The position numbers and the translations under genes are program-made. The notes under the pieces are model-generated. The model saw nothing but the letters and a program-made list of their open reading frames with translations, did not search any database and was not told the origin of the DNA. From Acidobacteriota bacterium (GTDB lineage Bacteria > Acidobacteriota > Terriglobia > Acidiferrales > UBA7541), in NCBI GenBank assembly GCA_003166795.1, contig PMUS01000014.1, positions 101,589 through 165,588 of the forward strand: DNA of 64,000 nucleotides, written 5' to 3'. This document shows, one piece after another, positions 130 to 15,201 of this stretch. Position 1 is the stretch's first letter. Each line of letters begins with the position of its first letter.

Positions 130-145
130 CGATCCGACCAGGATC

Positions 146-187: not shown

Positions 188-252
188 CTTCGCGCTCGCG
201 TACGCATGCCCGTAGGGGCGCTTCTTGCTCCGCCCTTTTCGGTTTTTAGGGT

Positions 253-281
253 GCCCCATCCTCGTTTCGCGAGGGTGGGGC
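253..281. repeat. GCCCCA...TGGGGC inverted repeat, copy 1
   Basis: An almost perfect hairpin (GCCCCATCCTCG, a TTT loop, CGAGGGTGGGGC) lies between the convergent superoxide dismutase and kinase genes. Copies with nearly the same stem occur at 14704-14739 and 28181-28218. This copy has no clean T-tract. It could still act as a bidirectional terminator. Confidence 0.55.
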
Positions 282-347
282 TCCTGGCCTTTCTGGGCAT
301 TCGCTTCGGCGCGCCGCGCTGCTCTTTCATCCAACGCAAAGCGCGTC

Positions 348-3170
348 TCATTGCAATGGTATGCGGTAAAGATTGCGGTGCACGCCACTGCGTGAAAACG
401 CGTAAAGTCCCGGCGCCGGCCCCGGAATCACCTCGCCGTCCAGGAACTTCGCTCCCTTGATGTTGGACTTTTCCGCTTCAATCCCGGCGGGCGGCAGGGC
501 GGGCAGGTTCCCGTCGCTCGAAACCGGCAAGAGCCATGTCTTGTTACCCGCCATCCACGATTCCACCGATACGAAGAACAGTCGCTGGCCGGGAATCCAT
601 CCTGCCCTGCACACGCGACGACAGACCGGAACGGGAGCCCCACCCGCGACCGGGACGGCAGCCGTAGCAAACGACACGTTTTCATCCCCCGAGACGGCGC
701 GCGTTACGAGCACCCATTGCCCGTCGGGGGATACGGAGTCGTTCTCCATCTCAAGAATGGGATCGGGTGACACTTTTGTCCGCTCGCTGCCATCCTCTTT
801 CATGCGATACAGGAAGTTCAGCTGCCCCTCGGCCGCCCTGAAATACAAGTAACCCTTCGGGCCAAATACGGGCGAATCTTCGTCAGCGGACGATAGAAAC
901 TGCCGGGGAGACGAACGACTATCCAGCGAGGCCAGCCACAAGTGCGAATGCCCCTGTTCATCGGCCGCGGAGAATGCGATGCGACGCCCATCAACGGATA
1001 TATCGTAGGTGGACAACAGGAAGCCGGGGAGCAGGCGATCGCTTGTTCCTGTCTTGAGATCCACGACCCGGAGCTCTCCGCTCGAAAATTTGCCCGATGA
1101 CCCGTGAGGACTGTCCAGGTAATACAATTTCTTGCCGTCGGGAGAAAATCGCGGGTATTGCGCGAAACCCTCCGAGGAAATTTGCCGCTCGCCTTTGTCA
1201 TCGTGCACCCAGACAGTGCTTTCCGCCAGTCCGACGGAGGTAATCAGAGAACTCCCGTCGGGTGCGATTGTTATGCCTTCTTCTTCCGTGGCGCCGGAAG
1301 TCACTGGTTGTGGCTCGCCGTCCGGGAAGCGCTGCCGCCAGATGTGGAAACGCCCGCCTGAATCCGAACTCAAGTACATCCAGTTTCCGTCAGGAGACCA
1401 TGCGACATATGTACATCCCGCGTTTGGCGGTCCGACTTGCTTTCCGGCGGACTTGCCGTCGAAGGGAACGAGTCGGCAAGGCAGAAATCCGCCATTGTCC
1501 ATTTCGACTAGAAGCACCCACTTGTGATCCGGTGAAATGGCGGAACGATGGGCCATGCCCCGTTCTCGTGGAGGCACATAGACGTCGCGGAGATCGGCGC
1601 GGCTCTCATTCGACGTTACCAATGCCATGTGCATGCCCTCCTTGAGCTCGGAGAACAGCACATGCTGGCTGTCAACCCATGTCAACCCGGAGGCATTCGG
1701 TAACATCCGCTGCGGTTCACCGCCCAGCGTCGCCACCTGCCACGTATCCCAGATCCCCAGGAAGGTGGTATACGCGATGCGCGAGCCGTCGAGAGAAAAC
1801 TCCGGGCTCATCTTTTCCAGGTTGTCGCGCGTCAGCTGCACGGATTCGCCGTCCGGCAGAAGCTTGACGTAGATCTGGCCGGGACCGAAGAACGTGCTGG
1901 GTCCGCGGATGAAAGTCAGCATTCGGCCATCCGGCGAAAGCGCTGGCGAAACGGCTGAATCAACGAAATTGGTTATCTGCACCCAAGCCTGCTGCGATGG
2001 AGTTAGCGGAACGGATTGCTTCGACCGAAAAAATTCGACGGCGCCCGCGAGCAAAATCAGGAGGGCCACTAACCCGATGCCTGCGGCCAGCCAATGCCTG
2101 CGTGGGCGCGCGGCCGGAGCCACGATAGGCATCGCGGTGTCGGACCCCACCGCCTCCAGCGCCGCTCGCACCTCGGCGGCTCGCTGGTAGCGCTGCCCCA
2201 TTTCTTTCGCGAGGCAGCGTTGAACGATGGCCCTCAAGCCCGCGGGCACGTGCTGCGGCAACGGCGTCGGCGGCTCCCGCAGGATCGCCGAACTCAATTC
2301 GTAATGCGTTTGCCCGTTGAAAGGCAGCGCGCCCGTGGCCATCTCGTAGAGCACGATCCCAAACGCCCACAGGTCCGTTCGTGCGTCCGCGGGTTCACCC
2401 CGCAATACTTCCGGCGCCATGTACGGCAGCGTTCCCACGACCGTCCCGGCTTTTGTCACCGGTCCCAGCGAGCGCGTAACATCTGTGAGTTCCTCGGCGG
2501 ACAGGCGTTTCGCCAATCCAAAGTCCAGCACCTTCGCTTGACCATCTGCCGTGATCACCACGTTCGCCGTTTTCAGATCGCGGTGCACGATGTCGCGCTC
2601 ATGGGCGTGCGCCAGCGCCGCGGCGATCTGCATCCCGTAGCGCAAAACTGTCTCCAGCGCCATCCCGTCGCGCGGCACCATCTCCTTCAGCGGCCGCCCC
2701 TCCACCAGCTCCATCGCGATGTAAACTTGGCCGCTCTCTTCACCGGCTTCATAGATCGTGGCGATATTCGGGTGGTTCAGCGCGGAAGCGTTTTGCGCCT
2801 CGCGCTGCAGTCGGGTTCGAGCTGACTGGTCCGCCAGGGCGCCTTCTGGAAGGAACTTCAGTGCCACCAGACGGCCGAGCTTCGAGTCCCGTGCCTTGTA
2901 CACCACGCCCATTCCGCCCGCACCGATGCGCGCGAGGATTTCGTACGAACCCAGCTTTGTGCCGGGCTTCAACACCTCGTTGCTCCCTGCCACCGGACGC
3001 TCCATGAAACTGCTGTCCCCTTGTTCGTGCGCGGCGATTAGCGATTCGACCTCGCGACGTAAGGACGGTTCGCTGCACGTCTGGTCCAGGTAGGCGCTTC
3101 GCTGGTCAGGCGTCCGCTCCAGCGCGCCGGCGAGCACCTGCTTCACTTCTTGCCATCGCTCTCGGTTCAC
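348..3170 (-). CDS. Receptor-type Ser/Thr protein kinase with PD40 propeller
   Basis: This 940-residue protein is read from a GTG start. Residues 1-70 form a leader shared with the next two kinases. The kinase domain spans about 75-340: glycine loop GAGGMGVV (83-90), Lys105, HRDLK (197-201), DFG (216-218) and APE (252-254), so all catalytic residues are present. One membrane segment lies at about 361-380. The remaining 550 residues carry repeated SPDG and SLDGSRIAY-type motifs of PD40/TolB-like beta-propeller blades, expected outside the membrane. The likely job is phosphorylation of cytoplasmic targets in response to an outside signal. It is the last gene of an ECF-kinase array, 46 bp after its neighbour. 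The ligand is unknown. Confidence 0.9.
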   Translation of the reverse strand: MNRERWQEVKQVLAGALERTPDQRSAYLDQTCSEPSLRREVESLIAAHEQGDSSFMERPVAGSNEVLKPGTKLGSYEILARIGAGGMGVVYKARDSKLGRLVALKFLPEGALADQSARTRLQREAQNASALNHPNIATIYEAGEESGQVYIAMELVEGRPLKEMVPRDGMALETVLRYGMQIAAALAHAHERDIVHRDLKTANVVITADGQAKVLDFGLAKRLSAEELTDVTRSLGPVTKAGTVVGTLPYMAPEVLRGEPADARTDLWAFGIVLYEMATGALPFNGQTHYELSSAILREPPTPLPQHVPAGLRAIVQRCLAKEMGQRYQRAAEVRAALEAVGSDTAMPIVAPAARPRRHWLAAGIGLVALLILLAGAVEFFRSKQSVPLTPSQQAWVQITNFVDSAVSPALSPDGRMLTFIRGPSTFFGPGQIYVKLLPDGESVQLTRDNLEKMSPEFSLDGSRIAYTTFLGIWDTWQVATLGGEPQRMLPNASGLTWVDSQHVLFSELKEGMHMALVTSNESRADLRDVYVPPRERGMAHRSAISPDHKWVLLVEMDNGGFLPCRLVPFDGKSAGKQVGPPNAGCTYVAWSPDGNWMYLSSDSGGRFHIWRQRFPDGEPQPVTSGATEEEGITIAPDGSSLITSVGLAESTVWVHDDKGERQISSEGFAQYPRFSPDGKKLYYLDSPHGSSGKFSSGELRVVDLKTGTSDRLLPGFLLSTYDISVDGRRIAFSAADEQGHSHLWLASLDSRSSPRQFLSSADEDSPVFGPKGYLYFRAAEGQLNFLYRMKEDGSERTKVSPDPILEMENDSVSPDGQWVLVTRAVSGDENVSFATAAVPVAGGAPVPVCRRVCRAGWIPGQRLFFVSVESWMAGNKTWLLPVSSDGNLPALPPAGIEAEKSNIKGAKFLDGEVIPGPAPGLYAFSRSGVHRNLYRIPLQ

Positions 3171-3234
3171 GTGTCCGCTTCTCTGAATTTAACTCGCGAT
3201 TTATTCCTGCCGCAATTTATTGCAGCTTCGCGTA
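2984..3234. repeat. 251-bp direct repeat, copy 1
   Basis: This stretch covers the end of the kinase leader, the start codon, the 46-bp spacer and the last codons of the next kinase. It matches 6009-6259 with a single difference that I could find (3087 C, 6112 G). The offset is exactly 3025 bp, one kinase gene plus spacer. The match extends through non-coding bases, which points to recent duplication or gene conversion rather than protein constraint. Confidence 0.9.
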
Positions 3235-6195
3235 TTCGGCCTTGGCTTGCTTCAGAATGGGTAGGTCCGGATCGGCATCCTTCCAAAGCGTCAGGAAATC
3301 CTGGTACGCCTTGCGAGCCCTGGCGGTGTCGCCCCCAAGCGCATACGCGCGGCCGAGCCCAAGATGCGCGAGTGCCTCCTGGGGTTGATTTTGGACCACG
3401 CCGATATGGTCAATCATCAGTTGAAACTGTGCAGCCGCTTCCTTTCCCCGATGCGCGGCGAGGTGCGCCTGCCCACGCAGATAGATGGGCATCCCTTGGA
3501 ACGGATAGGCCAGATCGTAGGGAGTCGAGGGGCTCAAATTCTCAATTGCCTTTTGCGGATCGCCTTGGCCGAGCGCGAGGGCCGCTTCCGTTTCGGGTAT
3601 GTAGCCGTATCGAACCAATGTCGCCTCGGGAAAGTCTCGTTTCAATCCATCCGACACCTTTCGCGCGTCCTCGGGATCATTGCAGAGAGCGAAAATAACC
3701 CCCATCCAGCCGCGTGCGTCGAGATCCTTCGTTGACCTGACGACATCCTGAGCATCCGCTCGGGCGTCGTCGCAATTTCCGAGCATCGCCGTGCGAAACG
3801 CCAATTCTCCTTTGAGCTGCGCCACCTGGACGCTCGCCTTAGCCGACGTGGCCGCCGCGAGGCCGCGGCGGCTCCATTCACGGGAAAGAGACCACTGACC
3901 CAAGTAGCCGGCCGTGCCGGCTTGAGCATCCTCCTGAGTCCCTGGAGGCAGTTCCATCCATGGGCGCGCCAGTTGGTCCTTCATTCCGGTCTGATCGTTT
4001 TGGACAAAAGCCAAAAGATACAGCGTTACGGAGGCTTGGTACGGCTCGATGTGCTTCGCGCGGGCCTGTTGAATTGTTTCGCGCGCCTGTGGGAACAAAT
4101 TCTGAAGGTAATGGTTTATTGCCAGGAAACCGTAGGTAAATGCCGAAGGATTCAGCTCGACCGTTTTCTTGAGCGCACTGGATGCTTCGTCGTAACGCCC
4201 CACTACCTGGCACGTGATCCCAAGTCCGTTCCACGACGCTGCATCTCTCGGGTACAACTTGGCCCACTGCTCGAAGAACTGTATGGATTGCTCGTAGTCT
4301 CGCATAACGACTAAATTGTAGTCCGCGGAAATCTGAAGTCTTTCATACTCGCTCGCCCGGTCCCGAAGCTCGTAGGCTTTTTTGAGATTACTTACGGCGA
4401 GATCCCTTCTGTCCAGCGCGTCATATGCGAGTCCCAAGTTCGCGTGCGCTGCGGCGAAATTTGGGTCGAGATCAACGGCGTGCTGGTAGGAGGAGGCTGC
4501 AGCCGGAAAATCCGCCTGCCAGAATGCTTGGCCGCCCAGATTGTATGCTTGCAGGGCCTCGAGCGACGACGTCGTCGCTTGTGTGAGCGGCACATCGTAG
4601 GCTCTGAGCGAACTTCGTGACTCGCCAAGCGTTGAGCGCAGCGCCGCGGCAGCCTGGCTGAGCGCCGGCAACACCCTTTCCTTTCCGTCCGCCGTGACCT
4701 GCGCCTGTGCCAGCGATTCGCCGGTGGTGCAATTCACGCCGTTGAGCCCAAGCACATATTGATTCCCTAGCGCCGCGATCGATCCCTCGATTTCCATCGT
4801 CGCGTTCATCCGCTCGCAAACTTCTCGCGCCAGCTTGGGTGTTAGCTGTGCGTCCGGCGGCTGCTCCATCATCTTCATCGTCCGCGTAATCTGATCGCCC
4901 GAAACGACCGCGAGAAACGGCGTCTGCTGAAGCTGCACGAAGAGTCCCTGTCGCAGCGCGCCATCGAAGACTGGATCACCCGTCGTGTTCGTGAAATCCG
5001 CGACTACAATCGAATCTTTATCGGTGATCTTTGGCGCGCGATGAAAATAAAAATACCAGCCGGCCACCAGCGCGAGTGCGACCATCAGCGCTCCCGCAGC
5101 AGGAAGAGCTACGCGACGCCGCGATGCCGGGCGCGTAGTGGCAGCCGCCACTGCCGCATCCGATGAACCGCTCAGCCGGCGCAGGTCCACTCCTATTTCT
5201 TTCGCCGACTGATACCGGTTCTCCCGCTCCTTCTCCAAACACTTCAGAATGATCCGCTCCATCTCCGGCGACACCCGCGCATTCAGCGCCCGCGGCGTCA
5301 CCGGCTGCCGATGCAGAATCGCGTCCGTCAATTGGGGAACTGAGTCCTCGCGGTATGGGCGGCTGCCCGTAACGATTTCAAACAACACCGCGCCGAGCGC
5401 GTGTACGTCCGTGCGCGCGTCCGCCGGCTCGCCTCTCAATTGTTCGGGCGCCATGTACGGCAGCGTGCCCGCCATGTTGTCCGCCTGCGCGAAACTCTCT
5501 GTTGCGGACAAATCGCTCGCCGCCCGCAGAATCTTCGCCAGCCCAAAATCCAACACCTTCACCTGCCTCTTGGGCGTGACCATGATGTTTCCCGGCTTCA
5601 GGTCCCGGTGCACGACGCCCTGCTCATGCGCCTCTTCCAGTGCCGCCGCGATCTGCGTTCCGAGCGCCACCGCTTCCTTCTCCGGCTGCGAAGGCCGTTT
5701 CGCTTCTTCCGCGAGCGATTTGCCTGGCACGCACTCCATCACCAAATAATCCGTGCCTTCTTGTTCTCCCACGTCATACACCGCTGCAATGTTGGGATGA
5801 TTCAGCCTCGCCAAAGCGAGCGCTTCCTTGCGAAACCGTTTCCGCGTTGCTTTGTCCGCCAACAAACCCAGCGGCAGAACTTTGATCGCTACATCGCGCT
5901 CCAACCGCGCATCGCGCGCGCGATAAACCACTCCCATCCCGCCCGCTCCCAGGCGCGACAGGATCTCGTACGGCCCCAGCTTCGTGCCGGGCTTCAACGC
6001 CTCGTTGTTCCCTGCCACCGGACGCTCCATGAAACTGCTGTCCCCTTGTTCGTGCGCGGCGATTAGCGATTCGACCTCGCGACGTAAGGACGGTTCGCTG
6101 CACGTCTGGTCGAGGTAGGCGCTTCGCTGGTCAGGCGTCCGCTCCAGCGCGCCGGCGAGCACCTGCTTCACTTCTTGCCATCGCTCTCGGTTCAC
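3217..6195 (-). CDS. Receptor-type Ser/Thr protein kinase with TPR sensor region
   Basis: This 992-residue protein starts with GTG. The leader (1-70) is almost identical to that of the kinase at 348-3170. The catalytic domain has GAGGMGVV, Lys105 in AIKVLP, HRDLKPGN, DFGLAK and YMAPEQL. A membrane segment (ALPAAGALMVALALVAGWYF) follows at about residue 375. Next come a DFTNTTGDPVFDG segment, typical of acidobacterial and TolB-like kinases, and a long TPR array (motifs such as AAAHANLGLAYDALDRRDLA). The TPRs are predicted to be extracytoplasmic and to bind proteins. It resembles the kinase at 6242-9244 along its whole length, so the two are tandem duplicates. The signal and substrates are unknown. 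Confidence 0.9.
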   Translation of the reverse strand: MNRERWQEVKQVLAGALERTPDQRSAYLDQTCSEPSLRREVESLIAAHEQGDSSFMERPVAGNNEALKPGTKLGPYEILSRLGAGGMGVVYRARDARLERDVAIKVLPLGLLADKATRKRFRKEALALARLNHPNIAAVYDVGEQEGTDYLVMECVPGKSLAEEAKRPSQPEKEAVALGTQIAAALEEAHEQGVVHRDLKPGNIMVTPKRQVKVLDFGLAKILRAASDLSATESFAQADNMAGTLPYMAPEQLRGEPADARTDVHALGAVLFEIVTGSRPYREDSVPQLTDAILHRQPVTPRALNARVSPEMERIILKCLEKERENRYQSAKEIGVDLRRLSGSSDAAVAAATTRPASRRRVALPAAGALMVALALVAGWYFYFHRAPKITDKDSIVVADFTNTTGDPVFDGALRQGLFVQLQQTPFLAVVSGDQITRTMKMMEQPPDAQLTPKLAREVCERMNATMEIEGSIAALGNQYVLGLNGVNCTTGESLAQAQVTADGKERVLPALSQAAAALRSTLGESRSSLRAYDVPLTQATTSSLEALQAYNLGGQAFWQADFPAAASSYQHAVDLDPNFAAAHANLGLAYDALDRRDLAVSNLKKAYELRDRASEYERLQISADYNLVVMRDYEQSIQFFEQWAKLYPRDAASWNGLGITCQVVGRYDEASSALKKTVELNPSAFTYGFLAINHYLQNLFPQARETIQQARAKHIEPYQASVTLYLLAFVQNDQTGMKDQLARPWMELPPGTQEDAQAGTAGYLGQWSLSREWSRRGLAAATSAKASVQVAQLKGELAFRTAMLGNCDDARADAQDVVRSTKDLDARGWMGVIFALCNDPEDARKVSDGLKRDFPEATLVRYGYIPETEAALALGQGDPQKAIENLSPSTPYDLAYPFQGMPIYLRGQAHLAAHRGKEAAAQFQLMIDHIGVVQNQPQEALAHLGLGRAYALGGDTARARKAYQDFLTLWKDADPDLPILKQAKAEYAKLQ

Positions 6196-6259
6196 GTGTC
6201 CGCTTCTCTGAATTTAACTCGCGATTTATTCCTGCCGCAATTTATTGCAGCTTCGCGTA
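6009..6259. repeat. 251-bp direct repeat, copy 2
   Basis: Second copy of the repeat at 2984-3234. Recombination between the two copies would delete or amplify one 3025-bp kinase unit and leave the reading frames intact. Confidence 0.9.
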
Positions 6260-9244
6260 CTCGGCCTTGGCCTGCTGGAACACGGGAATATCGGTGTCGG
6301 CGTCCTGCCAAAGCGTCAGGAAATCCTTATACGCCGTGCGCGCCTTGGCGGTGTCGCCCTCAAGCGCATACGCCCGGCCGAGCCCCAGATGCGCGAGCGC
6401 TCCGATGGGTTCGTTGCCTACTATTCCGCGATGGTCGAGGATTTTCTGCAACTCAGCTGCTGCTTCGCTGGCCTGATGCGCCGCTAGATAAGCTTCGCCA
6501 CGCACGTAGATGGGATACAAAGCCCCCCAATAGATAGTGCCGCTGGCCTTGCCTAACTCATATGGGGCGGTAGCTCTTAGACTCTCAATGGCCTCAGAAG
6601 CATTTCCCCGGCTGACTGCCAGCTTTGCCCGAAGCGTCGGCAGATAATTGAACTGCACGATCGTGGATTCTGGAAATCTCTTGTCCAGATCGTCGATCAA
6701 CACTTGTACCTTGCGGTCGTCCCCCGCATATGCCAACGCTAGCGCCGCGGTGTATTCCGCATCGCGGCTTGTCGTTCTCCCCACTGCTAAAGCGACGCGC
6801 TGTCGTGCCTCGTCTGCGTTGCCGAACAGGGCTTCCCGCAGGCCAGACAGGGCAGAGTAAGTTGCGGCCGTTTCCGTCTTGTCCGCCCGGTCGGCGGAAT
6901 CCACCGCCTGGCGCGAAAACTCTCTCGCCGCACTCAGCCTCCCGGAATAGGCAGCGGTATCGGCATCCAGGGCCAACAGAACATCTTCCACTCCTGGCTT
7001 TCCAGCGCCCCATGCTACCTGTTGCGCCATCCCTGCCGCATCGTTCTGCAAGAACGCGATCATATACAGGCCAGTATGGAAGGTAGGGTGATTCAGTTCG
7101 TGTTCGAGAGCTTGCTGATACGTGGCCATCGCCTCGTCGAGGCGATTGACGGCAGTGTAGTGGTACATGAGGACGTAATAAGCGAGGGCAGCGTCCGGAT
7201 TCAGGCGCATTGCCTCCCTGCCTTCATCAACCGCTTTCTCATATTGCCCCAGGACCGGGTAAATTATCCCCCCCAAGAACATGTGCGGATCCGCGGAACG
7301 GGGATAAGCCTCCGCCCAAAGCTCGCAGGTTTGCGCGGCCTTTTCCATGTTTCCCGTCACCACCATATTGAACGAGGCGGCGATGAAATAATTCTCCCGT
7401 TCGCTGGTTCGGTCGCGGAGTTCGTATGCCCTTCGGGTGTAGTCCGCAGACATGCTCGTTTCTTTAATATCTCCATACATGCGGCCCAACAGTGCGTAGG
7501 CCATGGCAAAGTTCGGGTCGAGTTGGATCGCATGCTTGAAAAACGGAATCGCTGCCGCCGACCCTGACGTTCCCGCTACCTGATAACCTGAACTCAAAGC
7601 CTTGAGTGCCTCGAGCGATGACGTAGTGGCCTGACTGAGCGGCACGTCAAACTTTTCCAGGGACGCATGCGATTCGCCGAGCTTCGAGCGAAGCTCCGCC
7701 GCGCCGGTGGTCAGCGCCGCGAGAACTTTCTCCTTGCCGTTCGCGGTCACTTGCTCTCCGGCCAAAGTTTCGCCGCTAATGCAGTTGACGGCATTGAGGC
7801 CGAGCACGTACTGATTTCCCAGGGTGGCGATCGACCCTTCGATCTCAGTCGTCGCATTGGTGCGCTGGCACACTTCTCGCGCGACTTCCGGAGTGAGCCG
7901 CGTATCGGGCGGCTTCTCCATCAGGCGCAAAGTTTGGCCGATTTGATCGTCGGAGACGAGTTGAAGGAACGGTGTCTGTTCGAGTTGCACGGATAGCCCT
8001 TGGCGGAGCGTGCCGTCGAACACCGGATCGCCCGTCGTGTTCGTGAAATCCGCAAGGACAATGGAATCTTTCTCGGTCAACTTCGGCGCGCGATGAAAAT
8101 AGAAATACGCGCCGGCCGCCACTGCAAGCGCAACCACCAGCGCGGACGCAAGAGGAAGAACTACGCGGCGGCGTGACGCCGGGTGTACGGCAGTCGCAAC
8201 GGTCACCACCGACGGCGCGCTCAGCCGGCGCAGGTCCACTCCTATTTCTTTCGCCGACTGATACCGGTTCTCCCGTTCCTTCTCCAGACACTTCAGGATG
8301 ATTCGCTCAAGTTCCGGCGACGCCCGCGCGTTTATCGCCCGCGGTGTTACCGGCTGTCTATGAAGAATCGCCTCGGTTAGTTGGAAAACCGATTCCTCGC
8401 GATACGGTCGCTGGCCTGTCACGATCTCGAACAAAACCGCGCCGAGCGCGTGTACGTCCGTGCGCGCGTCCGCCGGCTCGCCTCTCAACTGTTCGGGCGC
8501 CATGTACGGCAATGTGCCCGCCATGTCCCGCGCCTGGGAGAAGCTCTCCGTCGAATAGGAATCATCGGCTGCCCGCAGGATCTTCGCCAACCCGAAATCC
8601 AGCACCTTCACTTGCCTCTTGGGCGTGACCATGATGTTCCCCGGCTTCAAATCCCGGTGCACGATGCCGTGTTCGTGCGCTTCCTCGAGAGCCGTGGCGA
8701 TTTGCAGCCCCAATTCCACGGCCTCCTTCTCGGGCAGCGACGACGATCCCGCCTCTTCCGCAAGCGACCTCCCGGGCACGCACTCCATCACCAGATAATC
8801 CGTGCCTTCTTGTTCTCCCACGTCGTACACCGCCGCAATATTGGGATGATTCAGCTTCGCAAGAGCGAGCGCTTCCTTGCGAAACCGTTTCCGCGTTGCT
8901 TTGTCCGCCAACAAACCCAGCGGAAGAACTTTGATCGCTACATCGCGTTCCAACCGCGCATCGCGCGCGCGATAAACCACTCCCATCCCGCCCGCTCCCA
9001 GGCGCGACAGGATCTCGTACGGCCCCAGCTTCGTGCCGGGCTTCAACGCCTCGTTGTTCCCTGCCACCGGACGCTCCATGAAACTGCTGTCCCCTTGTTC
9101 GTGCGCGGCAATCAGCGATTCAACTTCGCGCCGCAGGGAATCATCCGCACAAGCCTGATCCAGATACGCGCGCCTCTCTGCTGGTGTCCGTTCGAGCGCG
9201 CCGGCGAGCGCCTTCTTCACTTCTTGCCAGCGTTCCGGCGTCAT
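6242..9244 (-). CDS. Receptor-type Ser/Thr protein kinase with TPR sensor region
   Basis: I chose the ATG at 9244 (1000 residues, MTPERWQEVKK) because it matches the start of the two downstream paralogues and overlaps the stop of the ECF sigma gene as ATGA, a sign of translational coupling. The open frame runs on to 9298, but that extension is unlike the paralogues. Domains are the shared leader, a complete kinase (GAGGMG, AIKVLP, HRDLKPGN, DFGLAK, APE), one membrane segment (VVLPLASALVVALAVAAGAYFY), a DFTNTTGDPVFDG segment and a TPR array. It is the first kinase after the sigma factor, so it is the likeliest partner of that factor. Confidence 0.9.
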   Translation of the reverse strand: MTPERWQEVKKALAGALERTPAERRAYLDQACADDSLRREVESLIAAHEQGDSSFMERPVAGNNEALKPGTKLGPYEILSRLGAGGMGVVYRARDARLERDVAIKVLPLGLLADKATRKRFRKEALALAKLNHPNIAAVYDVGEQEGTDYLVMECVPGRSLAEEAGSSSLPEKEAVELGLQIATALEEAHEHGIVHRDLKPGNIMVTPKRQVKVLDFGLAKILRAADDSYSTESFSQARDMAGTLPYMAPEQLRGEPADARTDVHALGAVLFEIVTGQRPYREESVFQLTEAILHRQPVTPRAINARASPELERIILKCLEKERENRYQSAKEIGVDLRRLSAPSVVTVATAVHPASRRRVVLPLASALVVALAVAAGAYFYFHRAPKLTEKDSIVLADFTNTTGDPVFDGTLRQGLSVQLEQTPFLQLVSDDQIGQTLRLMEKPPDTRLTPEVAREVCQRTNATTEIEGSIATLGNQYVLGLNAVNCISGETLAGEQVTANGKEKVLAALTTGAAELRSKLGESHASLEKFDVPLSQATTSSLEALKALSSGYQVAGTSGSAAAIPFFKHAIQLDPNFAMAYALLGRMYGDIKETSMSADYTRRAYELRDRTSERENYFIAASFNMVVTGNMEKAAQTCELWAEAYPRSADPHMFLGGIIYPVLGQYEKAVDEGREAMRLNPDAALAYYVLMYHYTAVNRLDEAMATYQQALEHELNHPTFHTGLYMIAFLQNDAAGMAQQVAWGAGKPGVEDVLLALDADTAAYSGRLSAAREFSRQAVDSADRADKTETAATYSALSGLREALFGNADEARQRVALAVGRTTSRDAEYTAALALAYAGDDRKVQVLIDDLDKRFPESTIVQFNYLPTLRAKLAVSRGNASEAIESLRATAPYELGKASGTIYWGALYPIYVRGEAYLAAHQASEAAAELQKILDHRGIVGNEPIGALAHLGLGRAYALEGDTAKARTAYKDFLTLWQDADTDIPVFQQAKAEYAKLQ

Positions 9245-9825
9245 TTTTCCGCGTCCCTTTTCAATTCGCGCCGCAGCCACGCTCGCGCCGTCGCCCACTC
9301 GCGTTTCACCGTCGCCGGAGAAATGCTCATCACGACGGCCGTGTCCTCAATGGACAGCCCGCCGAAAAATCGCAGCTCGATCAGCCGCCCCTGTTCCGGA
9401 TCCAGTGCGGTGAGTTTGTTCAACGCGCTGTCGAGCGCGACGATGTCCAGTTCCTGCTTTTCCGCCGGCGCGACACCGATTTCAGGATCGAGACTCAAGC
9501 GCGGCGCGGCGCCTCCGCGCTTGGCGGCCACGCGGTTTCTCGCGTGATCCACCAGGATGTGGCGCATCATCTGCGCGGCGACGCCGAAAAAGTGCGCGCG
9601 ATTTTGCCACTGTGGCGGCTCCTGCCGGACCATACGAAGGTAGGCCTCGTTCACCAGCGCGGCGCTCTGCAGGGTGTGGTCGCGCCGCTCGTGCCCGAGG
9701 TGGCGCCGAGCGACGCGGCGCAGCTCACCGTAAATCAGCGGAATCAGCGCGTCCCGCGCCTCCTGATCCCCAAGGCCCCAGTTGACCAGCAGCTGGCTGA
9801 TCTCCGCGGAAGGTTCCGGGCACAC
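9241..9825 (-). CDS. ECF RNA polymerase sigma factor (TIGR02999-like)
   Basis: Read from the GTG at 9825 the protein has 194 residues. That start follows an AGGGGAG ribosome site by a few bases and gives a normal ECF length; the frame is open back to 10026, but the extra part looks non-coding. Region 2 is seen in LIYGELRRVARRHLG and ALVNEAYLRM, and region 4 in GLSIEDTAVVMSISPATVKR, both typical of the sigma group found beside acidobacterial kinases. It should direct RNA polymerase to a specific promoter set. Its stop overlaps the start of the next kinase by four bases. No separate anti-sigma gene is visible, so the coupled kinases may control it. Confidence 0.9.
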   Translation of the reverse strand: MCPEPSAEISQLLVNWGLGDQEARDALIPLIYGELRRVARRHLGHERRDHTLQSAALVNEAYLRMVRQEPPQWQNRAHFFGVAAQMMRHILVDHARNRVAAKRGGAAPRLSLDPEIGVAPAEKQELDIVALDSALNKLTALDPEQGRLIELRFFGGLSIEDTAVVMSISPATVKREWATARAWLRRELKRDAEK

Positions 9826-10046
9826 GTTCGCGCTCCCCTGTTGACTGATTTGCCACAGGTTCAACGTGAAGGTACCCCGCACCACATTGGAAGTAAAGCA
9901 CTTTGGCCATTCTTCGCGGCGCCGGAAATAACTTCGAAATTCGTGAGCCAGTTTCCCGGCCGTTCTCGCTCTAGATAGTGAAGGCACGATGCGGCGTTCG
10001 GAAGGCTCGAAACACGCACCGGCCAAAAATGAGGAGGACGACGACC

Positions 10047-10511
10047 ATGAAATCCAATATCACAGCAAATGCCAGGAGAATTACGTTGTTCGCGGCCGTG
10101 CTCGTGGCCGTTTTAATTTTCACCGGCAACGCCAACGCGCAAACCACGTATCGGGGCACCTTCACTCTGCAGCATTCCGCACGTTGGGGAAAAACCGTGC
10201 TCGGACCTGGCGATTACATCGTAAGGGTCAACCTCGAGGGCGGCAGCAGCCCCCTGATCGCCGAGATCACCTACGCGAAGAGCGGCAGGGTGGCCGCCCG
10301 CGAGTCGTGCACGAATGCGGACACCTTTAAGGCGAACGGCGAGAAGAGCGCGCTGTTGCTCGGCCACCGCGGAGCAGAACCTGTCATACATTCATTCCGA
10401 GTCGCGGAACTTGGTGAGACTTTCATCTTCGACCGCACGCTAGCCAGCCGGCAGGGAGCCGAGGAAGCGATGAACCAGGAAAACGTCCCGGTACTCGTCG
10501 TGAAGCGGTAA
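10047..10511 (+). CDS. Small secreted protein, unknown function
   Basis: The ATG at 10047 sits behind GAGGAGG (10031-10037); an in-frame ATG at 10029 is less likely because it overlaps that site. The 154-residue product has a signal peptide (residues 1 to about 31, LFAAVLVAVLIFTGNANAQ). The mature part has alternating beta-type segments, including GTFTLQHSARWGKTVLGPGDYIVRV. The LGPGDYIVRV stretch resembles LPAGTYTFAL in the LPXTG protein at 19753, so the two may share a fold. It lies divergent from the ECF-kinase array and is followed by a strong terminator. The function is not known. Confidence 0.8.
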   Translation: MKSNITANARRITLFAAVLVAVLIFTGNANAQTTYRGTFTLQHSARWGKTVLGPGDYIVRVNLEGGSSPLIAEITYAKSGRVAARESCTNADTFKANGEKSALLLGHRGAEPVIHSFRVAELGETFIFDRTLASRQGAEEAMNQENVPVLVVKR

Positions 10512-10542
10512 CGGCCGACCACGGGTTTCGATGCAGCGCACA

Positions 10543-10594
10543 TTCGGGGGCCAGTCGCGCCGGCAAAATCCGGCCCTGGCCCCCGAAGTTTTTT
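10543..10594 (+). terminator. Rho-independent terminator
   Basis: A 12-bp perfect outer stem (TTCGGGGGCCAG paired with CTGGCCCCCGAA) encloses an inner GCCGG/CCGGC stem and is followed by GTTTTTT. It lies 32 bp after the stop of the secreted protein gene. Confidence 0.85.
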
Positions 10595-10624
10595 CTCGCG
10601 GGATATCCTGCGTTGCCTTCGTAG

Positions 10625-10644
10625 CGGCCGCCTGGAGGCGGCCG
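10625..10644. repeat. GC-rich palindrome
   Basis: A perfect 8-bp stem (CGGCCGCC, TGGA loop, GGCGGCCG) stands alone between the terminator and the first REP element. It has no T-tract and probably belongs to the dispersed palindromes of this genome. Confidence 0.5.
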
Positions 10645-10669
10645 AATTTGTGTCGTAGCTTTTCGGTCA

Positions 10670-10770
10670 AGCGCCGGAGACGCGACACATGTCAGCCCCG
10701 TCCGGAAGGGCGGGGTAACTGGGAAACGCAGGAATGAGGTTCGCGAGCGCCGTAGGTGCGACACCTAGCC
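10670..10770 (+). repeat. REP-like elements on the 3' side of the transposase gene
   Basis: Two elements of one family are seen: a full copy at 10670-10718 (GCGCCGGAGACGCGACACAT, then a GCCCCGTCCGGAAGGGCGGGG hairpin) and a 5' half at 10747-10770 (GCGCCGTAGGTGCGACACCT). The half-copy overlaps the transposase stop codon. The layout, with repeats on both sides of the transposase, matches known RAYT loci. Confidence 0.75.
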
Positions 10771-11208
10771 GAACACAAATTTGGGATCAAATTCCACGCC
10801 GTGCTTTTTCAACAGCGCGACCAATTCCGCCTCGAAATTCATTTTCGCGTGATGTGATTCCTGATTCTGTACGTATCGAACGACCGCAGGAACGCTGGAC
10901 GAACTGACGCTGAATGCCGCATAGCCCTGTTGCCATGCGAATTTATTGCCTTGCTCGTTGGCCCATCGCGAGGAATTCGATTTGATGGCGAGGACGGCCT
11001 TGGCAACTGACAACGGCGCCGGAATCTGGATGAGGAGATGAATATGATCGTCCGTCCCGCCCACGGCATGGACGAAAATCCCGTGGTTCTTGCAGATGCC
11101 TGCGACGTATGCCCACAGCCGGGGCTGGAATTCCTTTGAGATGGATTTGGAACGATGTTTGGTGCTGAACGCCACGTGAATTACGTTCTGGACGTATGTG
11201 TGGGACAT
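10765..11208 (-). CDS. REP-associated tyrosine transposase (IS200-like, RAYT)
   Basis: The protein has about 147 residues from MSHTYVQN (an ATG three codons upstream is possible). It contains the HUH motif HIHLLIQ and a downstream catalytic tyrosine in VVRYVQNQESHH, both diagnostic of Y1 transposases of the IS200/RAYT class. These single-strand nucleases cut and rejoin at hairpins. The length is normal and no lesion is visible, so it may be active. Copies of a REP-type repeat flank it, inverted relative to each other across the gene. No second transposase subunit (TnpB) is present. Confidence 0.9.
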   Translation of the reverse strand: MSHTYVQNVIHVAFSTKHRSKSISKEFQPRLWAYVAGICKNHGIFVHAVGGTDDHIHLLIQIPAPLSVAKAVLAIKSNSSRWANEQGNKFAWQQGYAAFSVSSSSVPAVVRYVQNQESHHAKMNFEAELVALLKKHGVEFDPKFVFG

Positions 11209-11295
11209 CTGTCGCACCTACGGCGCTCGGCGTCCTATATATCACGGACTCAGCCCTCCCGGGCTGAGCTAACTCCTGGCGCACCTACGGTGCTC
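11204..11295 (-). repeat. REP-like elements on the 5' side of the transposase gene, inverted
   Basis: Two inverted members of the family occur: 11204-11231 (reverse complement starts CCGAGCGCCGTAGGTGCGAC) and 11251-11295, which contains a CAGCCCTCCCGGGCTG hairpin followed by GCGCACCTACGGTGCTC. They face the copies beyond 10670, so the transposase gene is bracketed by inverted repeats. Confidence 0.75.
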
Positions 11296-11305
11296 AACGT
11301 CAAAA

Positions 11306-11771
11306 GCGCCGTAGGCGCGAAACACGTTAGCCCCACCCGGAAGGGCGGGTTCAGGAGGCGCGAAAGAAGCTAGCCCGGTCCGCAAGGGCCGGGAAACTCG
11401 GCCGTAAGGGCGGTTTTGTAGCGCCGTAGGCGCGACACATGTTAGCCCCGCCCGGAAGGGCGGGGATTCTGTAAATGATTCGAATCGCCACCTCGCTGCC
11501 GCAGGCCGTCGCGAAGGCCGCATGGCCGCAGCGACTGAACCCGAACGCTTTCAGCGAAGCGCCGTAGGCGCGAAAGACGTTACCCCGGCCCGGCTGGACC
11601 GGGAAACTGTTCTTGTTTTTCTACGTTGTCATCCCGAACCCATTCGCGCCCTTCGCGGATGGCGTGAGGGATCTGCTTCTGCCGTTGCCGTTGCCTTCGT
11701 ATCGCAAGCGCGGAGACCCGGTCCCGAGCGCGGGAGGCGCGAAAGAAGTTAGCCCAGTCCGGCAGGGCTGG
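11306..11771 (+). repeat. Array of five REP-like palindromic elements
   Basis: Five direct copies can be aligned by eye at 11306-11349, 11353-11394, 11421-11465, 11559-11603 and 11728-11771. Each has a GCGCCGTAGGCGCGA-type head (partly degenerate in the second and last), a short ACACGTTAG or AAGAAGTTAG link, and a GCCCCGCCCGGAAGGGCGGG-type hairpin whose arms change together, so pairing is kept. Compensatory changes in the arms show that the hairpin, not the sequence, is conserved. The stretch 11296-11883 holds no credible gene. Confidence 0.8.
11628..11678. repeat. Short dispersed repeat, GTCATCCCGA...GAGGGATCT type
   Basis: It starts GTCATCCCGA and ends GAGGGATCTGCTT, like 146-187, and sits between two REP-like elements. 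Confidence 0.35.
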
Positions 11772-11883
11772 GAAATCTTTTCAGATGTAAATGTGGCGCC
11801 GCGGTCTTTAGCGCGGCAGACTCCCTTGCGAACTCGGCGCGAAAAAATCATTTAGAGGCGAAGGGGTTGGCCACCGGCGACAT

Positions 11884-13017
11884 TCAAAATGGAATATCGG
11901 AGAGACCATCCTTTATCTCACGTACGATCGCGGCCGTTTCGACGTTCTCCAGCTTCTCGAAATGGACGACCCAGTCTTGAAGGCGATCGGTGACGACGTG
12001 ATCGAGGCCATCTGAACCGCCCGGCAATCCCATCCACAGATCGTTCAGGTACTTGCGAGCGGCTATTTTTAAGAGGCTTGAACCCTTCGAAACGCATGGC
12101 CTTAGTAGCGAATCGACAAGATCAGGTATGTCTTTCGCTTCGAGAAAAGCGGGTAGTCCATCGATGGCGTTTATGAGTTCGGCGGAAATATCCTTGTCAA
12201 TTCGAGATAGAAGATGATGCTTTACTAATTTGGCCTGCGCGGCTGAAAGATATTGCAGGTCCCCGGCCCTAAAGAAAGCCGTTTCGTAGGTAAATACCTT
12301 GTGCTGATGTTCCTCCTTCAGTATGGATAGGAAGCTCAGCGTTACCCTCTTCTTCGTCTCCTCCGAGGCCAATGAAAAAGCGGAACGAAAACAGATCGAC
12401 AGGCGGCTCTGCCCTTCGAAATCGGGTTCCGGTTCGTAGTCCCCCGCGGCAGTGTCAAGTTCGAAGTATCTACTTGGAATTACGCTTAACAGCAGGCGTT
12501 CAAGCTCGAACGCGGATACTTCTTTCAATAGATGCGTATGAATGGACATCGCCGATTCATCACGCTCAAGATTCTTGACGATCTGCTCCGCGGTATAACC
12601 GCATTTTTCTCTTCTACTTGCAGCTATCTCGTCAACGATCAGCTGGAGTAGCTCTCCCGCAACGATCGCTGCGCTCTTGCTCGCCGTCTCTCCTAAACGG
12701 ATGGTACGCCCCGGATGAATCAGATTCCTATATTCCCGAACTACGGTCGAAAGGGCAGCCGTCTTGGTCGAGATGATCTTCTCCTTCTCGCAAGCTGCAA
12801 TAAGGTCCGCGAGCTGCATCTTGAGCGGGTCGGCTCCGGTTCGTTTCTGGTACATGGTCGCCAACAGGTGGTCGACTAAAAGAGCTTCAACAATACTTCC
12901 GAGTAGGACCAATGCGGCCTTCCACGCTTCGCCGGACAGCGAGGCCTGGAATTCAACGTAATCCTTCATCAAAGATTCGCGAAACCTAGCGTCAACGATG
13001 AAGTCAAATTCGATCAT
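11884..13017 (-). CDS. HEPN/DUF4145-like protein, unknown function
   Basis: I start it at the ATG at 13017 (377 residues, MIEFDFIVDARF); the frame is open to 13164, but the extra 49 residues look non-coding. No clear ribosome site is visible. Residues 30-135 are helical and contain REYRNLIHPGR (94-104). An R-N-x-x-H followed by P/G and R is what DUF4145 and other HEPN-like proteins show, a superfamily with many RNases in toxin and defence systems. The remaining 240 residues are helical and unassigned. The gene is more AT-rich than its surroundings (26 of 60 bases are G or C at 12181-12240). It is divergent from a soluble kinase gene. RNase function is inference only. Confidence 0.75.
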   Translation of the reverse strand: MIEFDFIVDARFRESLMKDYVEFQASLSGEAWKAALVLLGSIVEALLVDHLLATMYQKRTGADPLKMQLADLIAACEKEKIISTKTAALSTVVREYRNLIHPGRTIRLGETASKSAAIVAGELLQLIVDEIAASRREKCGYTAEQIVKNLERDESAMSIHTHLLKEVSAFELERLLLSVIPSRYFELDTAAGDYEPEPDFEGQSRLSICFRSAFSLASEETKKRVTLSFLSILKEEHQHKVFTYETAFFRAGDLQYLSAAQAKLVKHHLLSRIDKDISAELINAIDGLPAFLEAKDIPDLVDSLLRPCVSKGSSLLKIAARKYLNDLWMGLPGGSDGLDHVVTDRLQDWVVHFEKLENVETAAIVREIKDGLSDIPF

Positions 13018-13232
13018 GAGTCGTTTGCTGCAGCTCAGTGCCGCTTCAGCTAGCAGGTTCTGGACCCTTGAGGCGCACTTCCAGGACCGACAAAACGGCG
13101 GTCGAGTCTTTAGCGCTAACGATCCCGCGCGCCAACTTATACACGTAAATACAACTCTACACAATTAATTGATTGGCAATTATAGCCGCCGTGAACGCGC
13201 GTTGCACGGCGAACAACTGGTGTAGGATTGGC

Positions 13233-14654
13233 ATGAAGCCATTAGATAGTTCGCCAAACGCGCGCCTCGCATCAAGGTCGCTGACCGCGACGGACGAGAT
13301 ATCGTCGGAGCCAGAATTCATGTTCGATCCAGGCGACATAATTGACGGCAAGTATCGAGTCGACGGTCTCTGCAGCGACAGCGGCGGCATGGGAGCAATC
13401 CTTTTCGTTACGCCGATGGGGCAAAGGCACGTACTCGAAGTGGTCCTAAAGTACTGCAAAGACAATAACGACGAGCAACTCAAGAGATTCTGCCGTGAGG
13501 TTCGCCTCCTCGGAACGTTTGCGGGTAATTCGAAGGTCGTTCAAATCGTTGATCGGAACCTGGACCACGTTCCGCCATACTTTGTGATGAAGTACTACCC
13601 TGAGGGTGATCTCTCAAAGCTCGCGCCCACCCTCCAAGGATCTCACGAGACTCAGGAACGAAGTTTTCTGCAAATGATCGATTGCCTGCAAGAGCTGCAT
13701 TCAAGAAATGAGTTTCACCGTGACATTAAGCCCCATAATTTTCTTCTCGAAGATGGCCAGATCATTGTCTCGGACTTCGGACTGACAACCGAAGTCGGTT
13801 CGGAGACGGCCTTCACCCGCAGGTCCATGTATTGGGGAACACACGGCTATATCCCGCCAGAGTTTTTAGACGGCGGATTCAAGTACGCCGATGCATCCGG
13901 GGACATCTTTATGCTAGGCAAGACCATGTATGTCTTGCTCACCGGTAGGGAGCCGATGTACATCGTCGGAAACGATTTACCGCCTCCGATTTTCCACATC
14001 ATCGAACGTTGTTGCAGCATTTCGAAGACAAACCGTTATCAAACACTCGCTGAGCTGAAGCAATCGCTTGTGGCCGCGTACGACGTCTTGCTCGGAAGAG
14101 CCGGAAGTCTTGGCAAGGTAAGACAACTCCTTTCAGCCATTCAAGATGGTATTGAACAGAATCACACACACAGAGCTGAAGACCTGTCGGAATTTATCGA
14201 ACAGCTCGGATTGCTGGACCAATCCGACCAAATTCATATTTGCCACGAACTGTCGAGCGGATTTTTCACCGTGATCGCACAACAACCTTTCGTCGATCAA
14301 CTTCCAACCTTTCTAACCATATACGACAGACTTGTTGAGGGTTGCAACTACGCTTGGAGTTACGCTGAGACTATTGCAAACAATATGCGCGCGATATTCG
14401 ACGGCGACGGTGTTCCGTTTAGCGAAAAAGCGCGCGCATTGGACTTAGCTATACGCGCCGCATTTCACATGAACCGATTTGCTGCTATGGGCACCTGTCG
14501 TTCGATGATCATGTCGATACGGGACGAAGCACTGGGCCTGCACGCAGCTTCCGTGCTCTTGAAAAATCGCGACACTTTCGCCTCAGAGATCGAGGCAAGC
14601 GAGTGTCAGAGTGACACAGTTCGAAATGCCCTGCGTCAGATTCAGAAGCCATGA
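13233..14654 (+). CDS. Soluble Ser/Thr protein kinase with helical C-terminal domain
   Basis: The ATG at 13233 follows AGGA by five bases and gives 473 residues; an upstream start at 13173 and a downstream ATG at 13320 are alternatives. The kinase domain spans about residues 35-285, with Lys73, Glu89, HRDIKPHN (162-169), DFG (181-183) and PPE (208-210), so catalysis should be intact. The glycine loop is unusual (CSDSGGMG; the first glycine is lost). No membrane segment or sensor domain follows, unlike the kinases at 348-9244; instead there are about 190 helical residues of unknown type. It lies divergent from a HEPN-like gene and is followed by a terminator. Confidence 0.85.
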   Translation: MKPLDSSPNARLASRSLTATDEISSEPEFMFDPGDIIDGKYRVDGLCSDSGGMGAILFVTPMGQRHVLEVVLKYCKDNNDEQLKRFCREVRLLGTFAGNSKVVQIVDRNLDHVPPYFVMKYYPEGDLSKLAPTLQGSHETQERSFLQMIDCLQELHSRNEFHRDIKPHNFLLEDGQIIVSDFGLTTEVGSETAFTRRSMYWGTHGYIPPEFLDGGFKYADASGDIFMLGKTMYVLLTGREPMYIVGNDLPPPIFHIIERCCSISKTNRYQTLAELKQSLVAAYDVLLGRAGSLGKVRQLLSAIQDGIEQNHTHRAEDLSEFIEQLGLLDQSDQIHICHELSSGFFTVIAQQPFVDQLPTFLTIYDRLVEGCNYAWSYAETIANNMRAIFDGDGVPFSEKARALDLAIRAAFHMNRFAAMGTCRSMIMSIRDEALGLHAASVLLKNRDTFASEIEASECQSDTVRNALRQIQKP

Positions 14655-14703
14655 TTCCCAATCGCGGCAGGTGGCCCGGGCTTTAGCCTTTGATTTTTCG
14701 GGT

Positions 14704-14739
14704 GCCCCACTCTTTGCGTAGCAAAGGTTGGGGATTTTT
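14704..14739 (+). terminator. Terminator built from the GCCCCA...TGGGGC repeat, copy 2
   Basis: The hairpin pairs CCCCA with TTGGGG and CTTTGC with GCAAAG around a GTA loop and is followed by ATTTTT. It lies 50 bp after the kinase stop. The stem is a diverged copy of those at 253-281 and 28181-28218. Confidence 0.75.
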
Positions 14740-15201
14740 CCCCGCCCCTTACCCTCGCCCCTCATCAAAAAAGTCCACAGGCTCACATCCACCATCCCCC
14801 TTGACATCCTGCTAGCGTCCAATGAGGGCCGGCACCATCTCTCGCGGCCCCAAAGGAGCTACTCATCATGATCAGAGGCAGAGGCTACCGACCCAATGAG
14901 CCGGCGCAGTCGCGGTCCAATCGCGATCCCGAGCGAATCCGCAGTGGAGAAGTAGTCGAGGGGCACCTTCTGAGCGTTTTGCCGGCCGCTCTTGCCGCGC
15001 CGGTTTCTGGCGGGCCGCCACCCGAAAAATCTCGCACCAGGAATTGGAAGTTACCCGTCACTGCGTGCCGAGTAGAAAGGGACGTAAATGATTGAAAACA
15101 CACGATTGCGACCGTCGCTACCCGTCACTGGAACGAGGGTGCTCCGAACACAAGGCTGCCCGCCTAAAGGCGTGCGCTACGCAGGCAAAAGCCGCGCGAA
15201 T
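14740..15201. other. Intergenic stretch with one weak short reading frame
   Basis: Between two genes of known strand lies 460 bp with little to support. A 75-codon frame at 14868-15095 on the plus strand has an AAAGGAG nine bases before its ATG, but the product is low in hydrophobic residues, rich in Arg and Pro, and resembles nothing I know. I leave it uncalled. No RNA gene is recognised. Confidence 0.4.

Follow-up and report, generated by a model that had tools for sequence, protein, structure and literature searches.

The two genes and the region that holds them

The window (the whole 64-kb stretch of DNA analysed here) contains two divergent genes, both intact in the sequence and in its translations: one for a predicted HEPN protein, P0001, and one for a Ser/Thr kinase, P0003. 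Their features are as follows.

128..15190, no strand: variable region holding the pair (flank comparison with sister genomes)
11884..13017, minus strand: P0001, 377 aa, predicted HEPN domain and helical-solenoid C-terminal part (translation, relatives, model)
11887..12600, minus strand: C-terminal helical solenoid (HEAT/TOG-like), residues 140-377 of P0001, candidate sensor or scaffold (model, structural neighbours)
12610..13002, minus strand: predicted HEPN domain, residues 6-136 of P0001 (VIA-align of the model)
12706..12738, minus strand: motif REYRNLIHPGR, residues 94-104 of P0001 (sequence comparison)
13018..13319, no strand: intergenic region, 302 bp between the two starts (sequence)
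13320..14654, plus strand: P0003, 444 aa, soluble Ser/Thr kinase belonging to a mobile family with full-length relatives (Pfam, relatives, alignment)
13320..14099, plus strand: kinase domain, residues 1-260 of P0003 (Pfam, alignment, model)
14106..14645, plus strand: all-helical C-terminal domain, residues 263-442 of P0003 (model, family alignment)
14705..14739, plus strand: terminator-like hairpin and T-run, 3' of the kinase gene (fold -20.5 kcal/mol, z -3.1)

Both genes of the open reading frame list behind the preliminary description exist, but its starts are too early when judged by relatives. They place the start of the HEPN gene at the ATG at 13017, where the relative at L053 aligns from its own Met1; the kinase gene, placed by the starts of its relatives, begins with the ATG at 13320. 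Together they occupy a block (11884-14654) with a G+C content of 51.3%, versus 59.5% over the full window. Of all stretches of 2.77 kb in the 64 kb, the one lowest in GC begins at 11882, 2 bases from this block. A recount by hand at 12181-12240 again gave 26 of 60 bases as G+C. The genes have G+C contents of 51.1% (P0001; GC3 57.7%) and 50.8% (P0003; GC3 57.5%). A terminator had been proposed beyond the kinase gene, and the hairpin and T-run found there bear this out; the hairpin is absent from the pattern-scan listing, which likewise holds no promoter-like site within the intergenic region.

The pair lies in approximately 15 kb that are absent from two sister genomes, in which only 57 and 80 bp separate the sequences matching window positions 1-127 and 15191/15201 onward. 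A third sister genome carries a different insert of 7.6 kb, with a gene resembling DUF1156/DNA methylases at borderline scores. The suspicion that this is foreign, defence-type DNA is supported.

The HEPN-type protein

The preliminary description had taken P0001 for a HEPN-type protein from the motif REYRNLIHPGR, which we confirm, and had left room for the N-terminal part folding as something else; the AlphaFold model matches HEPN structures instead. Under VIA-align it superimposes on 1ufb, which we take to be a HEPN protein (Z 10.1, rmsd 2.9, 115 aligned), and on 1wol, titled as an archaeal HEPN homologue (Z 9.8, rmsd 3.6, 116 aligned), in both cases over residues 5-136, these scores of about 10 being below the Z of about 13 under which a match between helical folds may reflect a common arrangement alone. 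Because Foldseek gave no match for the model at E <= 0.001 in PDB or BFVD, the assignment rests on this second look at the Foldseek candidates with VIA-align, together with the motif. The model has the helical fold by which membership of the HEPN superfamily is judged, and the RNxxH motif and a match to DUF4145 (PF13643) concur; the latter is the sole Pfam match (residues 32-104) and falls short of its cut-off (14.6 bits against 23.1, E 0.034), so P0001 is not a DUF4145 member by that measure. Judging from the model, the N-terminal part of P0001 most likely has the HEPN fold.

RNxxH is kept in 10 of the 10 sequences compared, six of which came from a scan using that motif. P0001 fits the catalytic pattern Rx4-6H through R94-x6-H101, but position 94 is a lysine in three of the 10 relatives, whereas R97-x3-H101 occurs in all 10 (with the same six picked by motif); the strict pattern is thus only partly present. 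The loop carrying the motif has a pLDDT of ~46-65. The structural neighbours of the C-terminal solenoid reach a Z of ~8-11 in VIA-align, which reflects a common helical arrangement, and the single weak PDB match by sequence (0.053) also falls in this part; profile A4 had no PDB match, and PADLOC had none for P0001. The maximum of the 19-residue Kyte-Doolittle profile (1.98, from residue 34) lies in the HEPN part, within a predicted helix.

Near-full-length relatives were found on only three viral contigs (L053-L055; 370-381 aa), none with the kinase, and repeat viral scans added no contigs to those already found. On L053 the relative lies antisense between the genes for a phage portal and a head maturation protease. 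Matches to the HEPN part only were found in two Streptomyces records (plasmid search) and in Komagataeibacter phage phiKM1 (the one record of the phage search), while the C-terminal part had no match in plasmids. In a collection of genome contigs (genome_contigs), 29 stretches fit a pattern and none was a relative.

Among known systems, Tha of S. aureus prophages is similar in that a single protein joins a HEPN domain to another part; it is carried by prophages and activated by phage structural proteins, whereupon its HEPN domain is reported to cut RNA (PMC11087260). The descriptions set the two apart: the HEPN domain of Tha-1 is C-terminal (residues 184-296 of 301, with RNSIMH), whereas that predicted for P0001 is N-terminal, with RNLIH. 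HEPN/MNT toxin-antitoxin modules have an adjacent minimal nucleotidyltransferase, and the partner enzyme modifies the HEPN toxin (PMC7641770); P0001, whose divergent neighbour is a protein kinase, falls outside this class.

The kinase and its family

P0003 was described beforehand as a soluble Ser/Thr kinase with intact catalytic residues, and this holds. It scores 98.3 bits against Pkinase (PF00069), above the gathering cut-off of 31.7; K44, E60, HRD 133-135, N140 and D152 are invariant in 21 of the 21 aligned family members; and the maximum 19-residue Kyte-Doolittle mean is 1.13, with no membrane-like segment. The glycine loop, which had been called broken, is so only at its first glycine, and the residue that stands there instead is for the most part conserved as well (C18 in 19 of 21). 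All 21 members retain G22, G23 and G25 of GGMG, and the loop segment exceeds that of L033, the most distant member, by one residue. The C-terminal half is helical and nameless, as had been proposed, and is nevertheless conserved along the family. Its model is all-helical, with a pLDDT of 74-97 in blocks of ten. It received no name from any library tried. Taken alone it had no match in PADLOC, and of ten family C-termini given to PADLOC nine had no match and one a weak match that is probably due to chance. The best 50 Foldseek matches listed for the whole kinase model are kinase entries, so the fold of this half was barely probed.

Full-length relatives have 41-67% identity, with one more at 28%, and occur in Thiocapsa, Azonexus, Lentisphaerae, Microcystis, Burkholderiales and Planctomycetota MAGs, on plasmids of Acinetobacter, Variovorax and Cupriavidus, and on viral contigs. 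Among 100 other relatives of the source genome, the best match scored 92 bits, versus 769, and covered the kinase domain only. We compared 28 loci. These include L034 (kinase domain only), L029 (cut by a contig end) and L040 (frame split), which were kept out of alignment A3, as were the plasmid kinases and L031, a duplicate of L027. The near-duplicates L027/L031 and L023/L030 count both among the 28 loci and among the 20 kinase-bearing genomes considered below; L011 and L012, with the same A. pittii kinase as L010, were not counted, and L035-L037, with weak or partial kinase-domain matches, were left out. In loci without annotation, genes were taken as open reading frames picked by length and GC pattern.

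At several loci the kinase has defence-type neighbours: at L019 these are Gabija-like GajA/GajB, at L021 a C5 DNA methylase and a type I restriction subunit, at L026 an EVE-HNH type IV-like nuclease, at L027 a QatC-like and an XRE-M78 protein, and at L018 a SIR2-like protein. On L038 it lies between the genes for a phage terminase and a head-tail adaptor and has a DUF4145 protein as neighbour (Pfam, 1.2e-18). The neighbour at L014 is a 429-aa protein that looks like HEPN by its FRHGILHG motif, read by eye, with nothing found by Pfam. The relatives at L015 and L033 appear to sit among housekeeping genes. Because the scan was selective (Pfam covered 16 of the 28 loci and PADLOC 10 proteins from seven loci, four of which gave matches) and had no random-locus control, these neighbours give no figure for enrichment. 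The segment 4314-4820 of L024 was rejected as a HEPN candidate: it scores 4.6e-4 against a HEPN profile, but the match spans just 34 positions, and Pfam identifies the segment as eCIS_core.

Two stand-alone kinases in PADLOC resemble P0003. PD-T4-6 is its best match (106.6 bits, with no curated cut-off applied); of the matches listed, all but one end at residues 212-218 of 444, within the kinase domain, and one ends at 303, and the C-terminal half alone has no match. Stk2 (PDLC02375), the Staphylococcus anti-phage Ser/Thr kinase, is a single-gene system too (PMC11341870). Its model matches 21 of the 21 aligned members (P0003: 63.6 bits, residues 50-396), but, in a comparison made through the PADLOC model only, not the C-terminal half alone. 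The KKP module (PfkA/PfkB kinases and a phosphatase) shares with P0003 the GGM, HRD and DFG motifs and the location of a kinase on mobile DNA; KKP kinases are reported to phosphorylate host proteins, halting growth or killing the cell (PMC11341870). Unlike them, P0003 has no FHA (PfkB) or cold-shock (PfkA) domain among Pfam matches to E 10. KKP clusters a second kinase and a phosphatase gene; the gene on one side of P0003 is that of the predicted HEPN protein.

One system or two

The preliminary description had proposed a single system in which the kinase may switch the HEPN protein, and had named recurrence as neighbours in other genomes as its test. The recurring pair is not supported, as the two were never together in the limited sets searched, and a switch between them is left unsupported on the same grounds. 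Specifically, the sequence available for the 28 kinase loci, whose flanks are unequal and in some cases shorter than 1 kb on one side, contains no relative of P0001; none of the 20 kinase-bearing genomes has full-length P0001, and one has a match to the HEPN domain only; the kinase is in none of five HEPN viral records, which may be fragments; and no kinase-family match occurs in 23 HEPN loci (163 kb, with overlaps). Profile comparison found no domain common to both families (probability 0.2%, E 0.26), and the block has no DNA-level relatives in plasmids or E. coli genomes. Among open-access titles and the beginnings of abstracts, none dealt with these two genes together or with a phage protein of the HEPN-solenoid type, which is a weak absence.

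Because the pair was not seen together elsewhere, two separate defence-type genes are likelier than one system. Our preferred reading, to which we give a probability of roughly 0.55, is that P0001 and P0003 were acquired independently, each as a single-gene cargo protein with a most likely anti-phage role, and are chance neighbours in a variable chromosomal site. The computed support consists of the likely HEPN fold in the model, the kinase catalytic residues, family conservation and mobility, including one case for each family (L053 and L038) of carriage in a phage head-gene module, and the lack of recurrence as a pair in the sets searched. We infer an anti-phage role for both proteins, exerted through kinase activity of P0003 and RNase activity of P0001, and a sensor role for both C-terminal parts. 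In P0003, the family-specific helical domain would probably sense an infection signal and release the N-terminal kinase, which would phosphorylate host proteins and bring about growth stop or cell death by analogy with KKP and with Stk2, which phosphorylates host proteins to the same effect. In P0001, the HEAT/TOG-like part would be a sensor or scaffold that binds a phage component, upon which a dimer of the N-terminal HEPN domain would cut RNA, as Tha does.

Both genes may instead be regulatory or selfish cargo without a role in defence, with the kinase as regulator of a mobile element or prophage, the HEPN protein as an inactive binding module. Prophages, and not defence alone, are under the control of KKP kinases (PMC11341870), some HEPN families have no catalytic motif (PMC3710099), and P0001 has RNxxH and no clean Rx4-6H; still, we consider this unlikely, since unrelated hosts carry such genes, at some loci next to restriction and Gabija-like genes. 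A less probable arrangement would put the conserved kinase at the hub of a set of exchangeable partners (HEPN, SIR2, XRE-M78, REase-like proteins, DUF3800 and more), P0001 being one effector of many. The kinase is indeed conserved over its full length while the adjacent gene varies by locus, and L008, L009, L010 and L014 have it 120-281 bp upstream and on the strand of the kinase; but any island gene has varied neighbours, their orientation is not fixed, and at L015 the kinase has, by our reading, no cargo-type neighbour. That the kinase phosphorylates the HEPN protein, activating or silencing a toxic RNase, is very unlikely given the failure of the families to occur together at any of the loci, genomes and records above or to share a domain, even though the genes are divergent at a short distance, have the same foreign base composition and share a variable region, HEPN/MNT provides a precedent for a modified HEPN toxin, and HEPN-type or HEPN-looking proteins of other families adjoin the kinase at L038 and L014. 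Least probable of all is a kinase-to-RNase relay, in which a conserved infection sensor with swappable effectors here switches the HEPN-solenoid RNase by phosphorylation.

The kinase family, present in several phyla, on plasmids and on viral contigs, is a clean, testable single-gene anti-phage candidate. The HEPN-solenoid family, of which one member sits among phage head genes, offers a Tha-like candidate whose domains come in the opposite order. Two island neighbours of one composition need not form one system.

The gene pair and its variable region

The divergent genes of P0001, the HEPN-type protein, and P0003, the soluble Ser/Thr kinase, are separated by a gap of 302 bp. The preliminary description placed them in an AT-rich block, and rightly so: both genes are intact, and the G+C content of the block is 51.3% versus 59.5% for the whole window. 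The lowest-GC window of the block's length starts 2 bases from the block. The two genes are similar in G+C and in GC3 (57.7% and 57.5%); for six further genes analysed, GC3 is 67-81%.

Features of the region:
348-9298, three tandem giant Ser/Thr kinase genes (940-1018 aa) with Pkinase matches
9241-10026, sigma-factor-like gene (by reading), adjoining the giant kinases
10670-11772, 46-nt REP-like repeat in six copies, left of the pair
10765-11217, ORF left of the pair beside the repeats, by reading presumably a REP-type transposase
11884-13017, minus strand, P0001 gene, 377 aa
13320-14654, plus strand, P0003 gene, 444 aa
3' of the kinase gene, terminator-like hairpin, found by folding and absent from the pattern-scan list

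We compared the window with six sister stretches around the right-flank gene (L082-L087). In L083 and L086, the matches to window positions 1-127 and to 15191/15201 onward lie only 57 and 80 bp apart, and synteny goes on further left of the first match; thus approximately 15 kb (128-15190), including the pair, the giant kinases and the sigma-factor-like gene, is present here but missing from these two sisters. Acquisition of this variable region is the simplest reading, with loss in the sisters as the alternative. In L082, the same two flanks are matched 7.6 kb apart with another insert between them, one gene of which has borderline-scoring matches to models of DUF1156 and of DNA methylase. 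The left flank is unmatched within 4 kb of sequence in L085 and 12 kb in L087, too little for a verdict, and L084, which stops about 0.6 kb past the right-flank gene, gives none. The N-termini of the giant kinases are closely similar. Among the matches listed from a search of 20 genomes of the genus, many of these genomes contain short pieces of the repeat region.

The HEPN-type protein and its relatives

The only Pfam match of P0001 is to DUF4145, at 14.6 bits, under the 23.1-bit cut-off. The earlier assignment to the HEPN type is most likely correct, as indicated by an AlphaFold model (built from four sequences, mean pLDDT 79.8) and by an RNxxH motif. Residues 5-136 of the model match 1ufb and 1wol, the latter titled as an archaeal HEPN homologue, at a Z of about 10; below a Z of about 13, the structure tool cautions, helical folds can resemble each other merely through a shared arrangement. 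Matches with comparable Z to long helical-repeat proteins (importin, CLASP TOG, PP2A B56), which cover the C-terminal part, stand alongside these two. RNxxH is found in 10 of the 10 sequences compared, 6 of which came from a scan whose pattern included the motif; its presence in all four found without that scan (P0001, L003, L041 and L042) lends the HEPN fold some support independently of the model. The usual HEPN motif, as given in PMC3710099, is Rx4-6H. P0001 fits it only with R94 as the arginine, and position 94 is a lysine in 3 of the 10.

Three viral contigs (L053-L055) encode P0001 relatives of 370-381 aa, with 31-34% identity along most of the length and 23-26% in the C-terminal part alone. 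In L053, the relative is antisense and flanked by the genes for portal and head maturation protease, and a terminase lies beyond; this is the place of a phage cargo gene. The P0001 family profile matches 7 of 396 phylum genomes, its own included, the other six in the HEPN part only. Two further proteins carry a C-terminal HEPN-type domain: an unannotated 257-aa ORF of Komagataeibacter phage phiKM1 (L041, 5662-6435), adjoining HicAB-like and RelA/SpoT-like genes, and a 773-aa viral-contig protein (L059, 1808-4126), repeat-like by eye, whose domain is related to that of P0001.

The kinase family and its neighbourhoods

The kinase domain call for P0003 holds, with a Pkinase match of 98.3 bits and catalytic residues invariant across A3, the full-length family alignment (21 rows including the query, two of them near-identical). 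GGMG, K44, E60, HRD, N140 and D152 are invariant; the C-terminal half, all-helical in the predicted model (mean pLDDT 87.4, pTM 0.59), is also conserved (A349, E350, A353, A373, L374, R386 and A388-M390 invariant). Plasmid-borne relatives, 8 records at a coverage of at least 80%, come from Variovorax, Cupriavidus and Acinetobacter. Others occur at 24 loci in genome contigs, 20 of which (L014-L033) matched over most of the length, and in three viral contigs, with the reading frame split in one (L040). Among the other 100 relatives of its own genome that were searched, the best match to the kinase family (92 bits versus 769) lies inside the kinase domain.

The PADLOC models PD-T4-6, mad6, MkoA and Stk2 match 21 of 21 A3 members. 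For P0003 most of these matches stay inside the kinase domain, but those of MkoA, Stk2 and a single PD-T4-6 model extend to residues 295-396. The C-terminal half alone matches neither PD-T4-6 nor Stk2, of which P0003 is thus only a possible member. Among the C-terminal halves of 10 kinase members, 9 had no PADLOC match; a weak Csn2 match in the other (0.013) was taken as chance.

Genes were picked around 28 kinase loci; neighbours at 16 were scanned with Pfam, and 10 proteins from 7 loci with PADLOC. PADLOC matched 6 of these proteins, at 4 of the 7 loci. The neighbourhoods as a whole serve as context and are not a measure of enrichment over random loci.

Neighbours of the kinase gene (defence-type at L018, L019, L021, L026 and L027; other families or no match at the remaining loci listed):
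L014, no match; next gene, metallo-beta-lactamase fold
L018, SIR2_2 (Pfam only; no PADLOC match)
L019, Gabija-like GajA and GajB
L020, PIN
L021, C5 methylase and type I restriction subunit
L022, transposase
L026, EVE-HNH, type IV-like
L027, QatC-like and XRE-M78
L028, DUF2971
L032, methyltransferase-like
L039, Tae4
L008 (small gene), L009, L016, no match or other families

At L038, terminase lies upstream of the kinase and a head-tail adaptor downstream, and the gene separating the adaptor from the kinase encodes a DUF4145 protein (1.2e-18); at L024, terminase is about 3.4 kb away. The kinases of L015 and L033 lie among genes that by reading look housekeeping. Toxin-antitoxin genes are near the relative on Acinetobacter plasmids, and on those of Acinetobacter pittii (L010, L011) a carbapenemase gene and VapBC are a few genes away. 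A 1066-aa protein directly upstream of the Cupriavidus relative (L009, 4649-7849) matches nothing in Pfam or PADLOC.

Pairing and possible action

The proposal that the two genes form one system was not borne out. A search with P0001 over 1,981 ORFs, taken from the window and the 28 kinase loci, found only P0001 itself; the flanks of these loci differ in length, with less than 1 kb on one side in some. Full-length P0001 relatives were found in 0 of 20 kinase genomes; in one, the Acinetobacter schindleri genome of L030, the HEPN domain alone is matched, on a different contig. Conversely, the kinase-family domain was found in none of 23 HEPN loci (163 kb, overlaps included), where the positive control matched, and the kinase in none of five HEPN viral records, possibly fragments. 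Across the kinase loci, kinase genomes and HEPN records searched, the pair was thus seen once, at this locus, and its adjacency is most likely a coincidence within the island.

The rival explanation is a single system in which the kinase acts on the HEPN protein. Counted in its favour are the DUF4145 neighbour at L038 and, at L014, the closest kinase relative (67%), a 429-aa upstream neighbour without a Pfam match that contains FRHGILHG, by our reading a HEPN-looking motif; the P0001-type HEPN profile finds neither protein. A single partial match of the HEPN profile among ORFs within 6 kb of a kinase was dropped. The 429-aa protein (L014, 6591-7880) is one of a family carried by plasmids, with 8 matching records, and in Acidovorax the family member adjoins a type I restriction gene.

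The libraries used put no name to either full-length family, and each looks like a variant of something already known. Stk2, one analogue for P0003, reportedly stops growth by phosphorylation. KKP, as described in PMC11341870, is another; P0003 differs from KKP in having no FHA or cold-shock domain by Pfam. Tha, according to PMC11087260, is a prophage protein of 301 aa that contains RNSIMH and is switched on by phage tail proteins; P0001 differs from Tha in that its HEPN part is N-terminal. By analogy, as for all functions suggested here, the C-terminal half of P0003 may be a sensor whose N-terminal kinase would stop growth by phosphorylation, as in KKP and Stk2, and in P0001 the solenoid part may be the sensor and the HEPN part would act as an RNase, as in Tha.
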